From positions 1 to 64,000 of the forward strand of contig NZ_CABPSB010000012.1 of assembly GCF_902459655.1 (NCBI RefSeq): a DNA stretch of 64,000 bases. Direction: 5' to 3'. A model generated the notes under the pieces. That model searched no databases, was not told where the DNA came from, and worked only from the letters and a program-made list of their open reading frames with translations. Positions 665 to 33,337 of this stretch are shown in pieces (positions within the stretch are counted from its first letter, which is position 1; each line of letters begins with the position of its first letter). The translations under genes were made by a program, and so were the position numbers. The stretch is from Pandoraea anhela. Its GTDB lineage: Bacteria; Pseudomonadota; Gammaproteobacteria; Burkholderiales; Burkholderiaceae.

Positions 665-1468
665 ATGCTGTCCCGTCAACTGATCAACGCGTTCCTCGGC
701 GCCACGTTTGCGCTGGCCTCCCTGGGCGCCTCGGCCCAGACCGCCGACAAGCCCCTGAAAGTCGGCACGATGGCCGGCTCGGACGCGCAGATCTTCGAAG
801 TCGTGAAGAAGGTTGCCGAGAAGCGCGGCCTGTTCATCAAGATCGTCGAGTTCAGTGACTACGCACAGCCGAACGCCGCGCTCGACGCCGGCGATCTGGA
901 CGCCAACGGCTTCCAGCACAAGCCGTTCCTCGACAGTCAGATCAAGGATCGCGGGTACAAGATCGCGACTGCCGGCCTCACCTACGTGTCGCCGCTCGGC
1001 TTCTATTCGAAGAAGTACAAGTCGCTCAAGGACCTGCCCAATGGTGCGCAAGTCGGTATTCAGAACGATCCGTCGAACGGTAATCGTGCCCTGCTCCTGC
1101 TGCAAAAGGAAGGTCTGATCAAGCTCAAAGCCGGTTTGGAAGGCAAGAACGCCACGCCGCTCGACATCGCCGAGAACCCGAAGAAGCTGAAGATTCGCGA
1201 ACTGGAAGCTGCGCAACTGCCGCGCGCCTTGCCGGATCTGGACGCCGCGTCGATCAACACGAACTTCGCCGCCCAAGCCGGTCTGGTGCCCAAGCGTGAC
1301 GCCATCGCCATCGAAGACCTGAAGGGCCCGTACGCCAACCTGATCGCCGTGCGCACGCAAGATCTGAACAAGCCGTGGGTCAAACAGCTGGTCGACGCGT
1401 ATCACTCGGACGAAGTGAAGCAGTTCATCGACAGCCAGTTCAAGGGCGCGCTGATTGCCACTTGGTAA
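665..1468 (+). CDS. metQ: MetQ/NlpA-family methionine-type substrate-binding protein
   Basis: The 267-residue protein is a periplasmic binding protein of the NlpA/MetQ family, which delivers D- or L-methionine to the MetNI ABC transporter. Visible family features are KVGTMAGSDAQIF after the signal peptide, a Y-P-N-A-A-L-D-A-G-D-L-D-A-N segment (MetQ proteins have D.N.N.FQH) and FQHKPFLD. The ATG at 665 is preceded by AAGGAG. The start fits a signal peptide (MLSRQLINAFLGATFALASL...SAQ). Unlike classical MetQ there is no lipobox cysteine, so the protein looks soluble in the periplasm rather than lipid-anchored. No metN or metI gene lies beside it, so it is either an orphan binding protein or the transporter is encoded elsewhere. 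Confidence 0.85.
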   Translation: MLSRQLINAFLGATFALASLGASAQTADKPLKVGTMAGSDAQIFEVVKKVAEKRGLFIKIVEFSDYAQPNAALDAGDLDANGFQHKPFLDSQIKDRGYKIATAGLTYVSPLGFYSKKYKSLKDLPNGAQVGIQNDPSNGNRALLLLQKEGLIKLKAGLEGKNATPLDIAENPKKLKIRELEAAQLPRALPDLDAASINTNFAAQAGLVPKRDAIAIEDLKGPYANLIAVRTQDLNKPWVKQLVDAYHSDEVKQFIDSQFKGALIATW

Positions 1469-1520
1469 GCATGTAGGCGTGATTCGGTGCGCAAAGCGCG
1501 CATCGTTCGCGGCTAACGAA

Positions 1521-1547
1521 AAACCGGGGGCGGCCCCGGTTTTTTTT
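1521..1547 (+). terminator. Rho-independent terminator after metQ
   Basis: ACCGGGG (1523-1529) pairs with CCCCGGT (1534-1540) around a 4-nt loop. A-rich sequence precedes the stem and a T8 run follows it. It ends the metQ transcript. Confidence 0.85.
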
Positions 1548-1624
1548 ATGCTGCGCATTTGGGGCGTCGGCACAAAAGCGTTTGACTAGAATAGAAACAT
1601 GATTCCTGTCGACGGGAGGCCGCC

Positions 1625-4147: not shown

Positions 4148-4163
4148 TGGCACGTCCATTGCT
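4148..4163 (+). promoter_or_regulatory. Sigma54 (-24/-12) promoter of the prp operon
   Basis: TGGCACG-N4-TTGCT matches the sigma54 consensus exactly. The -12 GC at 4161-4162 predicts transcription from about 4174, leaving a leader of about 72 nt before prpB. It agrees with PrpR being a sigma54-dependent activator. Confidence 0.85.
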
Positions 4164-31349: not shown

Positions 31350-31513
31350 GCGAGATTTCCCGGAATATTGTCGTCGTCGACTGCACAGGCAGTCTGCCTG
31401 AGTGGCATAACGACTCGAGGATGCCCGAACTGAAATGGCGCCGGCTATCGGGAAACGATGCTCCATCTCGAGTGAGCCTTCGGAAATCGCGACGCGCCAT
31501 CGCTTGCCGTCAT

Positions 31514-31528
31514 GCACGGTGCTGGGCA
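31514..31528. promoter_or_regulatory. Weak NtrC-like enhancer site
   Basis: GCAC-N5-TGGGCA resembles the NtrC consensus GCAC-N5-TGGTGC with a mismatch. Its centre is 62 bp, about six helical turns, from the stronger site at 31576-31590, a spacing expected for cooperative binding. Confidence 0.4.
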
Positions 31529-31575
31529 TGACGCGCACGATCGCCGGCCAGTCGCGTGCCGGACGACCCGCCGGC

Positions 31576-31590
31576 GCACGGTAATGGTGC
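31576..31590. promoter_or_regulatory. NtrC-like enhancer site
   Basis: GCAC-GGTAA-TGGTGC matches the NtrC consensus GCAC-N5-TGGTGC exactly. It sits in a longer dyad, GGCGCAC (31573-31579) and GTGCGCC (31587-31593). It lies about 167 bp upstream of the sigma54 -24 element, a normal enhancer distance. Confidence 0.65.
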
Positions 31591-31593
31591 GCC

Positions 31594-31611
31594 GCCGCAT
31601 CGCGATGCGGC
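31594..31611. repeat. 18-bp perfect palindrome beside the NtrC-like site
   Basis: GCCGCATCGCGATGCGGC is its own reverse complement. It abuts the NtrC-like dyad directly; role unknown. Confidence 0.6.
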
Positions 31612-31756
31612 ATTGTGCCCGTTGCCATGCCATGACGCCGGGGGCCGCAGATAGCTTCGGGCGTCGCGCATCTAGACCTCATGCGTCAGGTGCGCTCCGC
31701 CGAATGCCCCGTGAAATGGACGTCCAACGGATTTCGCTGCTGAGAGGATGCGCACT

Positions 31757-31772
31757 TGGCACGCCAATTGCT
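31757..31772 (+). promoter_or_regulatory. Sigma54 (-24/-12) promoter of the nitrate transporter
   Basis: TGGCACG-N4-TTGCT, the same perfect sigma54 sequence as in the prp promoter, places the transcription start near 31783. The resulting leader is about 166 nt long. Confidence 0.85.
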
Positions 31773-31782
31773 AAGCATTGCA

Positions 31783-31948
31783 TAAGGCCAACGGCGGCCG
31801 AGTAAAGACAAGCGAATTTTCTGCACCGCATGCATGACCTCGCGAAAGCGGGGATTTCGGGGCAACGGCGTCCCGGAGCTACAGGTCTGTTTTCAGGCCG
31901 ACGGCTTCGGGACGCTTTTTTTTTCGGCATACGAACACGAGGGTACCC
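31783..31948 (+). promoter_or_regulatory. ANTAR-type (NasR/NasT) antitermination leader
   Basis: The predicted leader contains two hairpins with the identical hexaloop AACGGC, having A at loop position 1 and G at position 4, the known signature for ANTAR proteins. Hairpin 1 is GGCC-loop-GGCC (31786-31799). Hairpin 2 is a 6-bp stem, CGGGGC-loop-GTCCCG (31858-31875). A GAAA-loop hairpin lies between them (31838-31853). Hairpin 2 uses the same bases as the 5' arm of the terminator at 31868-31924, so the two structures are mutually exclusive. This matches nitrate-responsive antitermination in nas operons. The cognate ANTAR protein is not in this window. Confidence 0.75.
31868..31924 (+). terminator. 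Conditional intrinsic terminator (attenuator)
   Basis: GCGTCCCG (31868-31875) pairs with CGGGACGC (31908-31915). The stem continues inward through GAGC/GCTT and GGTCTG/CAGGCC around a TTTT loop, and nine T residues follow. It lies 25 nt before the transporter ATG, and no plus-strand gene precedes it, so it can only attenuate the transporter transcript. Confidence 0.88.
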
Positions 31949-33337
31949 ATGAGCACGCTCACGCAATCGTTGAAAAGTGGCAACTGGCGCGCGCTGGTTG
32001 CGTGTTTTCTCTACTTCGACACGGGTTTCACCGTCTGGGTGATGCTCGGCCCGCTGGCCCCGTTCATCGGCAAGGACATTGCGATGACGCCCGCTCAGAC
32101 CGGCTTCCTCGTGGCCGTGCCGGTGCTGGGCGCCGCGATTCTTCGCGTGACGCTGGGCAATCTCTATCAGGCCTACGACGGTCGCAAGATCGCGTTGATG
32201 GGCCTCGTGCTGTCGGCGATCCCCTCGGTCGTGCTGCTGCTGATGCCGGGCACGCCGTCGTACACCCTGCTGCTCGTGCTCGGCGTGTTCCTGGGCGTGG
32301 GCGGCGCAAGCTTCGCCGTGGCGCTGCCGATGGCCGGCAGCAACTATCCGCCGAAAGTGCAGGGCCTCGTGCTCGGTCTCGCTGCTGCGGGTAACGTCGG
32401 CGCCGTGCTCGACGGCTTCATGTTCCCGGGGCTGGCCGAGCACTTCGGCTGGGCGCACGCCGCCGGCGCCGCGCTGCCGCTGCTCGCGCTCGCTGCGCTG
32501 GCGCTGGTGTTCTGGGCGAAGGATCTGGGCGTGAAGTCGGGTAGCGCACCGCGTGCGTTCTCCAGCTTCTTCGTGACGGTATTCGGTCTCGTCGCCCTCG
32601 TGCTATGCGTGCACGCCGGTGCGTTCGGCGAAGGCAAGGCTGGCGTTCTGCTGCTGCCGGTGCTGGGTGCACTGCTCGCGATCGCGGTGCTGCCGCGCCA
32701 CTATCGCGGGGTGCTCGGCGAGCGCGACACGTGGGTCATCATGCTGGTCTACAGCATCACGTTCGGCGGCTTCGTGGGCATGTCGTCGTATGTCACCACG
32801 CTGCTGATTTCGTTGTACGGCATGCCGCGTCTCGAGGCCGGCCTGTTCATGTCGCTGCTCGCCTTCCTCGGCGCGCTGGTGCGCCCCATCGGCGGTCTGG
32901 TGGCGGACCGCATCTCCGGGGTGCGTGCGCTCGTGCTGCTGCTCGCCGCCATCTCGATCATCGATTTCGTCTTCGCCGCGTGGATGCCCCCGCAAGGCGC
33001 CGGTATCGCGCTGCTCGTGCTGGTCTACGTGTGCTTCGGTCTGGGCAACGGGGCCACGTTCCAGCTCGTGCCGCAACGCTGGCAAGGCAAGACAGGCCTG
33101 ATGTCGGGGATCATCGGCGCCGCCGGCGGTATCGGCGGCTTCTATCTGCCGGTGATCATGGGCATCGCCAAGGAGTCGACCGGCAGCTATCAGATGGGCT
33201 TCGCGACGTTCGGGGCGCTGGCGGCGCTGGCTTTCGTCCTGGTGGTCGCCCTGCGCACGCACTGGATGTCGTGGGCGTTGCCCAAGGAAGTGGCCGGTGC
33301 GCCGGTGCTCGCCGGGGGCGTGGCGCACGCAGAGTAG
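31949..33337 (+). CDS. Nitrate/nitrite transporter, NNP family (NarK/NasA-like)
   Basis: The 462-residue MFS protein of the nitrate/nitrite porter family has about twelve membrane segments. Family features include GPLAPFIGKDIAMTPAQTGF, GLAAAGNVGAVLDGFMFPGL, GNGATFQLVPQRW and the nitrate signature region GIIGAAGGIGGFYLPVIMG. A weak GAGGG precedes the ATG. The sigma54/NtrC plus ANTAR-type control region points to nitrogen-limited, nitrate-induced expression, so assimilation is more likely than respiration. No nitrate or nitrite reductase gene is adjacent. The protein ends inside an 11-bp tandem repeat. Confidence 0.9.
   Translation: MSTLTQSLKSGNWRALVACFLYFDTGFTVWVMLGPLAPFIGKDIAMTPAQTGFLVAVPVLGAAILRVTLGNLYQAYDGRKIALMGLVLSAIPSVVLLLMPGTPSYTLLLVLGVFLGVGGASFAVALPMAGSNYPPKVQGLVLGLAAAGNVGAVLDGFMFPGLAEHFGWAHAAGAALPLLALAALALVFWAKDLGVKSGSAPRAFSSFFVTVFGLVALVLCVHAGAFGEGKAGVLLLPVLGALLAIAVLPRHYRGVLGERDTWVIMLVYSITFGGFVGMSSYVTTLLISLYGMPRLEAGLFMSLLAFLGALVRPIGGLVADRISGVRALVLLLAAISIIDFVFAAWMPPQGAGIALLVLVYVCFGLGNGATFQLVPQRWQGKTGLMSGIIGAAGGIGGFYLPVIMGIAKESTGSYQMGFATFGALAALAFVLVVALRTHWMSWALPKEVAGAPVLAGGVAHAE

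Follow-up and report, generated by a model that had tools for sequence, protein, structure and literature searches.

A predicted NasS/NasT-controlled attenuator leader with a long, structured linker in Pandoraea anhela, and its likeness to the narK RNA family

ANTAR-target RNAs are defined by a dual hairpin with a variable linker, and overlap between the second hairpin and a terminator was used as a filter in the study that gives this definition (PMC3369931). In Paracoccus denitrificans, nitrate dissociates NasS from NasT, NasT binds the nasA leader, hairpin HI of that leader is needed for expression, and NtrBC is involved (PMC3795266, PMC5424462). Expression there responded little when HII, the second hairpin of the leader, was mutated (PMC5424462). 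In Enterococcus faecalis the linkers of eut leaders measure 5–12 nt (PMC3369931), and antitermination by EutV was abolished or strongly lowered when a linker was lengthened to 14 nt, or by 20 nt (PMC3369931, PMC8934654). The linker limit of 2–25 nt found in PMC8164766 is a curation limit for actinobacteria and does not belong to the 2012 definition.

The locus described here lies in a window of 64,000 nucleotides (the whole stretch of DNA analysed) from contig 12 of 61 in the 6.05-Mb assembly of Pandoraea anhela. It is very probably a transcription attenuator of a known kind, an antitermination leader controlled by NasS and NasT behind a sigma54/NtrC promoter. An earlier note on this DNA had proposed an ANTAR-type attenuator leader before a transporter gene, a proposal now supported by hexaloops conserved at 27 of 31 transporters of the genus and by a single ANTAR gene, nasT.

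Promoter, leader and transporter gene

The locus comprises the following features.

31576–31590, no strand assigned: NtrC-type site GCACGGTAATGGTGC (GCAC-N7-GTGC), conserved in the genus
31594–31611, no strand assigned: perfect 18-bp palindrome GCCGCATCGCGATGCGGC, directly behind the NtrC-type site in a conserved block
31757–31772, plus strand: sigma54-type −24/−12 promoter TGGCACGCCAATTGCT, its box seen in 27 of 27 genus loci with the leader
31786–31799, plus strand: P1 hairpin GGCC-AACGGC-GGCC, hexaloop with A1 and G4 at 31790–31795
31807–31831, plus strand: near-invariant linker block GACAAGCGAATTTTCTGCACCGCAT, 25 nt, from the alignment of 27 genus transporter leaders
31838–31853, plus strand: linker hairpin CCTCGC-GAAA-GCGGGG, pairing in 25 of 27 genus leaders
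31855–31878, plus strand: P2 antiterminator hairpin, hexaloop AACGGC at 31864–31869, 3′ arm common to the terminator
31868–31924, plus strand: intrinsic terminator with nine-T run, 13-bp outer stem, −35.6 kcal/mol without the tail
31949–33337, plus strand: NarK-family MFS transporter, 462 aa (TIGR00886, E 2.9e-76, 257 bits)

Both promoter elements stand as the earlier note had read them, TGGCACG-N4-TTGCT at 31757–31772 and an exact GCAC-N5-TGGTGC at 31576–31590, 167 nt before the GG of the −24 element. By sequence, a −24/−12 box with an upstream GCAC-N7-GTGC site makes up a sigma54/NtrC-type promoter at which binding is predicted. NtrC would bind at 31576–31590, and an NtrC gene is present in the genome with a score above the curated cut-off. 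Among the genus loci with the leader, GCAC-N7-GTGC is perfect in 26 of 27 and has one mismatch in the 27th (L106), and its start lies 179–191 bp from the start of TGGCAC. The site pattern occurs at three places in the window and TGGCAC-N5-TTGC at two (4148 and 31757); position 4148 carries a second strict sigma54-type box, TGGCACGTCCATTGCT. From the spacing of the box at 31757, transcription probably starts near 31782–31783, just 5′ of P1. The weaker NtrC copy that had been read six turns away (31513–31527) keeps one good half-site and is unconserved in the genus (26 usable rows of 27), and we regard it as doubtful. The 18-bp palindrome is exact in 24 of 27 genus loci, occurs once in the window at zero mismatches, and is possibly the site of another regulator.

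P1 and P2 share the loop AACGGC, as had been noticed from the window, and each is a stem of at least 3 bp that closes a hexaloop with A1 and G4. P2 overlaps and excludes an intrinsic terminator: RNA folded to 31880 forms P1, the linker hairpin and P2, whereas a fold carried through the terminator loses P2, so that the mutual exclusion first suggested by reading is borne out by predicted folds. The isolated energies are −6.1 kcal/mol for P1, −9.4 for the linker hairpin, −12.4 for P2 and −35.6 for the terminator, and the terminator hairpin that remains without the arm common to P2 has −16.2 kcal/mol. The terminator stem spans 31868–31915 and is followed by nine T (31916–31924) and 24 nt to the ATG at 31949. 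The window came through an automatic check for P1 and P2 with an overlapping terminator behind a −24 box, and none of 1960 mononucleotide shuffles did; the shuffles were drawn from 49 related loci and not from the window. A separate terminator scan of the window did not list the terminator at 31868–31924, probably because of its internal loop; it called three sites at the beginning of the transporter gene instead, with 0.9 expected.

The transporter scores below the curated cut-off of TIGR00886 (257 against 311.7 bits), yet this is its best-scoring NCBIfam family, and its best match among solved structures is the NarK nitrate/nitrite transporter 4u4t (E 5e-14). The transporters of named Pandoraea relatives are 91–98% identical to it.

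Together, these elements suggest the following mechanism. Under nitrogen limitation, phosphorylated NtrC near 31576 would activate sigma54 RNA polymerase at 31757–31772, and P1 would be the first hairpin to form on the transcript. When nitrate is absent, NasS would hold NasT, the terminator would beat P2, and transcription would stop before the transporter gene. When nitrate is present, NasS would free NasT to grip the hexaloops of P1 and P2, P2 would occupy the left arm of the terminator, and the polymerase would read through. The linker hairpin would fold the long linker, keeping P1 and P2 within reach of one NasT dimer.

Partner proteins and conservation in the genus

The earlier note had looked to an ANTAR protein of the NasR/NasT type, and absence of any ANTAR gene was to count against its reading. 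A six-frame search of the 6.05-Mb assembly with the Pfam ANTAR profile gives exactly one match, nasT, adjoining nasS; the regulator would accordingly be NasT (with NasS) and not NasR. The NasT-like protein has receiver and ANTAR domains, and its best solved relatives are ANTAR regulators. The protein encoded next to it is NMT1-like, which fits NasS, a name given by context. Both belong to a cluster in the order nirB-nirD-nasC-cobA-nasT-nasS. Its other genes have the orientation of nasT: cobA and nirD score above curated cut-offs and nirB above one; the best profiles of the molybdopterin oxidoreductase are formate dehydrogenase alpha and the nitrate reductases NasA/NasC, all below cut-off.

The nas cluster has a leader of its own, with a −24/−12 box, P1 (loop AAAGGC), P2 (loop AACGGC), a terminator and a GCAC-N7-GTGC site 108 nt upstream. 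DNA matching finds this leader in 27 of the 32 genomes of the genus, and the upstream region of G028, when read, shows it there too. Three P2-like sites in the P. anhela genome match exactly, of which two belong to the known leaders and the third lies on C15; when one mismatch is allowed the number of places is 51, against 50 in the reversed control.

Our genus set comprised 32 Pandoraea genomes, 31 with the transporter and 28 with an ANTAR protein above cut-off. The upstream regions of all 31 transporters were read, and two hairpins with A1/G4 hexaloops were present at matching places in 27 of them, A1/G4 having also been a search criterion; the hexaloops that the note had described are therefore conserved among relatives. 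Of the 28 genomes with NasT, 27 have the leader before the transporter; of the three whose transporter comes without NasT, none has it (Fisher p 9e-4; the value carries no correction for descent and, as descent is shared, overstates independence). The single genome with NasT but no leader there, G028, carries the transporter in another context. The three without NasT (G023, G025, G030) lack the leader and have a −24/−12 box 55–56 nt before the ATG with GCAC-N7-GTGC further up. Since they keep the promoter without the leader, promoter and attenuator are separable, and the attenuator goes with NasT. At the NasT-less Pandoraea loci L116, L117 and L215, the transporter is divergent from nirB, with a sigma54 box and GCAC-N7-GTGC but no attenuator; nitrate control is apparently absent there and nitrogen control kept.

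Among 80 named loci, the leader is present in 15 of 16 from Pandoraea (exception L079). Outside Pandoraea, a tandem hexaloop leader lies within 400 nt of the transporter at 15 of 63 examined loci, with at least five T after 13 of the 15, and no such tandem leader was found at the other 48; L061, with 61 bases upstream, was left out of this count. Four genomes (G007, G170, G227, G241) carry a second, more divergent ANTAR protein elsewhere.

The narK RNA and P11 families

An Rfam scan of the window at gathering thresholds gave no match. Below threshold, the leader resembles RF03032, the narK RNA (24.8 bits against a gathering score of 43.2), and its score is low probably mainly because P2 lies outside the reach of the model. 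In printed alignments of RF03032, columns 1–15 read as a −24/−12 box and the annotated stem as P1, its loop being AACGGC; the last columns, CGACAAAGACGUCG, form a second hexaloop hairpin (P2) that Rfam does not mark as paired. The family reportedly goes back to work by Weinberg in 2017; a literature search for narK RNA found no paper, and a wider search none by title among the matches listed.

RF03032 matches were obtained in 26 of 299 genomes at family level (E 0.001, none over threshold), 23 of 349 at order level (E 1e-4, three over threshold) and 5 of 321 at class level (two over threshold). Of the 49 hits at family and order level, 47 have a −24/−12 box, 48 show P1 and P2 by eye, and 43 clear the strict automatic check for P1 and P2 with an overlapping terminator. 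Among those that fail, L118 (a P1-stem mismatch), L120 and L134 (poor T-runs), L153 and L163 show P1 and P2 by eye; L142, in G016, has neither a −24 box nor hexaloops and was taken as chance. In all five class-level hits P1 and P2 can be made out by eye; the terminators of L221 and L223 are less regular. The genes behind the hits, judged by eye from translations, often encode NrtA/NasS-like substrate-binding proteins, nirB, cobA or transporters. At order level the ANTAR gene lies within 2 kb of the hit in 18 of 23 genomes and within 7 kb in 21, and on another contig in two. The matches in the P. anhela genome itself are weak (E 0.016 and 0.036): with so permissive a cut-off, 6 of 14 control genomes match as well, against none of 14 in the stricter searches; a third match (C35, E 0.75) was taken as chance.

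Two readings would remove the attenuator or its protein. The 3′ hairpin and T-run could be the ordinary terminator of an upstream plus-strand transcript, without effect on the transporter, as intrinsic terminators are common between genes. We give this reading the least credence of all: the annotatable upstream gene (CAAX-protease-like) is on the minus strand, in keeping with the earlier observation that no plus-strand gene precedes the leader, the left terminator arm is the 3′ arm of P2, and a sigma54 promoter lies directly before the leader. It is nearly as improbable that the leader, or narK RNA as a class, is a protein-free riboswitch that binds nitrate or another ligand directly, a reading to which Rfam lends itself, since narK RNA is entered there as cis-regulatory under a name taken only from a gene. 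The conserved core consists of two small A1/G4 hexaloop hairpins, which is the published ANTAR signature, and we rejected the riboswitch on the co-occurrence with ANTAR genes: every order-level genome with a match has one (23 of 23, against 165 of 349 overall; Fisher 1.4e-8, uncorrected for descent), as does every family-level genome with a match (26 of 26, a count without base rate). From the model columns, the P1, P2 and terminator at the hits and this co-occurrence, narK RNA looks like an ANTAR leader of the NasT type, with promoter DNA built into its model.

A second Rfam family, the Pseudomonas sRNA P11 (RF00625), has the same parts. Its printed consensus has a −24/−12 box, P1 and P2 with the loops AACGAU and AAAGGC, an annotated hairpin in the linker between them, and an overlapping terminator, and for this reason P11 looks like a terminated nas leader. 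The P1–linker–P2 part folds accordingly (z −5.0), the best fold closing one more pair across the P1 loop, and the linker of P11, at about 20 nt, is shorter than that of the Pandoraea transporter leader. At eight loci scanned, sub-threshold RF00625 matches occurred at two, once at the nas leader of P. anhela (22.2 bits, gathering score 70) and twice in L121; a HepC_CRE match was taken as chance. The higher-scoring match in L121 (1062–1212, minus strand) shows, by eye, the box, P1, P2 and terminator of another leader, so that L121 carries two divergent dual-hexaloop leaders back to back, at 1062–1212 (minus) and 1480–1612 (plus).

A 2024 study by Marogi is said to describe partner switching between nitrate, sensor proteins and P11, so that a link between P11 and NasT has probably been published already. 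P11 is the RNA of the C. elegans avoidance studies; PMC12080996, citing Marogi 2024, gives it as a regulator of the NirB-NirD-NasC operon, and in PMC6606865 it is named as homologous to a P. stutzeri RNA that lies next to a nitrite reductase gene. We equate the P11 of the C. elegans studies with RF00625 from the shared name and operon.

The linker and comparison with known systems

The earlier note had called the GAAA-loop hairpin in a 58-nt linker unusual. The length holds (58 nt with a 6-bp P2, 55 nt with a 9-bp P2) and the hairpin is conserved, but its GAAA loop is not, and hairpins of this kind recur in leaders with long linkers. In the 27 Pandoraea transporter leaders, 97.8% of cells of the linker hairpin pair, and the loop and much of the sequence vary. 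L107 and L112 lack the hairpin and have a 37-nt linker with the other parts intact; in L113 the best fold of the linker is a different one. A CGAWTT motif related to the 31807–31831 block seems by eye to be present in nas and Paraburkholderia leaders. Structured and 55–58 nt long, this linker is a variant that exceeds the published values considered here (2–25 nt for curated actinobacteria, 5–12 nt for E. faecalis eut leaders).

We measured linkers in 118 leaders (27 transporter and 27 nas leaders of Pandoraea, 15 others before a transporter, 48 RF03032 hits with L142 dropped, and the G028 nas leader), which gave 99 distinct linkers within groups. At least 25 nt long, 66 of 69 fold to −8 kcal/mol or better (exceptions L107, L112, L135), against one structured linker among the 30 shorter than 25 nt, a difference that is partly a length effect because long GC-rich stretches fold better anyway. 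Against dinucleotide shuffles, the Pandoraea transporter linkers fold only slightly better (mean z −0.8, n = 21); the means are −2.2 for Pandoraea nas leaders (n = 24), −1.2 for others before a transporter (n = 15) and −3.4 for RF03032 hits (n = 9). In the linker helices of nas leaders, 95.8–97.9% of cells pair, and two pairs changed on both sides, a result reached by 15 of 500 shuffles. Covariation is thin in the linker of transporter leaders, where the one pair changed on both sides was matched by 225 of 500 shuffles. The linkers of the 15 leaders from outside Pandoraea do not align, and RNAalifold did not find a hairpin common to them.

The nas leader of G028 has a 16-nt linker without a hairpin, and its relatives have similar flanks (by eye) around a hairpin, with about 18 nt outside it. 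Judged from this leader, L107 and L112, the linker insert seems to be gained or lost as a whole. We put the odds at about even that the linker hairpin serves as a neutral spacer, an inserted structure whose folding leaves P1 and P2 close enough for a single NasT dimer. The 37–39 nt outside the hairpin in Pandoraea transporter leaders fit this spacer role less well, unless the block at 31807–31831 is also folded or bound. The main rival reading, which strikes us as rather unlikely, gives the hairpin a role in pausing or timing: it would allow NasT to load before the polymerase has made the terminator. Hairpins can pause polymerase, and this one forms directly before P2; a pausing role sits badly with the leaders that lack the hairpin, two before the Pandoraea transporter and that of the G028 nas cluster, and with the variability of its loop and sequence. 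At L165 and L162, the loop of the linker hairpin is itself six bases with A1 and G4 (AACGAA, AATGAG), and these leaders may therefore offer three NasT sites.

On balance, and with reasonable though far from full confidence, we favor a wider conclusion: RF03032 would be the 5′ part of NasT-bound antitermination leaders, including untranscribed sigma54 promoter DNA, and not a separate riboswitch candidate, and alongside it there would be a long-linker ANTAR class folded by a third, freely exchangeable hairpin. If so, leader searches limited to 25-nt linkers miss this class, the spacing range seen in ANTAR-type leaders is widened, and a previously unassigned RNA family receives a probable function and protein partner, with the warning that part of its model is promoter DNA. 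The same likeness would tie these leaders to P11, a Pseudomonas RNA serving as a signal in C. elegans inheritance studies. The Pandoraea leaders form a natural test set, in which the linker may be long or short, the hairpin present or missing, and NasT encoded in the genome or not.

Among the described systems, the NasR/nasF leader of Klebsiella oxytoca shares with the predicted system two A1/G4 hexaloops, a P2 exclusive with the terminator and a nitrate signal (PMC3369936, PMC7496416); it differs in that NasR senses nitrate itself through a NIT domain, whereas a NasS–NasT pair would do so here. The EutV/eut leaders of E. faecalis likewise combine a dual hexaloop, a dimeric ANTAR protein and antitermination, but their linkers are 5–12 nt and lengthening abolishes or strongly lowers function (PMC3369931, PMC8934654). 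In Paracoccus, the NtrC-type site is at nasT, whereas in P. anhela a sigma54 box lies directly before P1, the gene behind the leader encodes a transporter and lies apart from the nas cluster, and the linker of 55–58 nt contains a hairpin.
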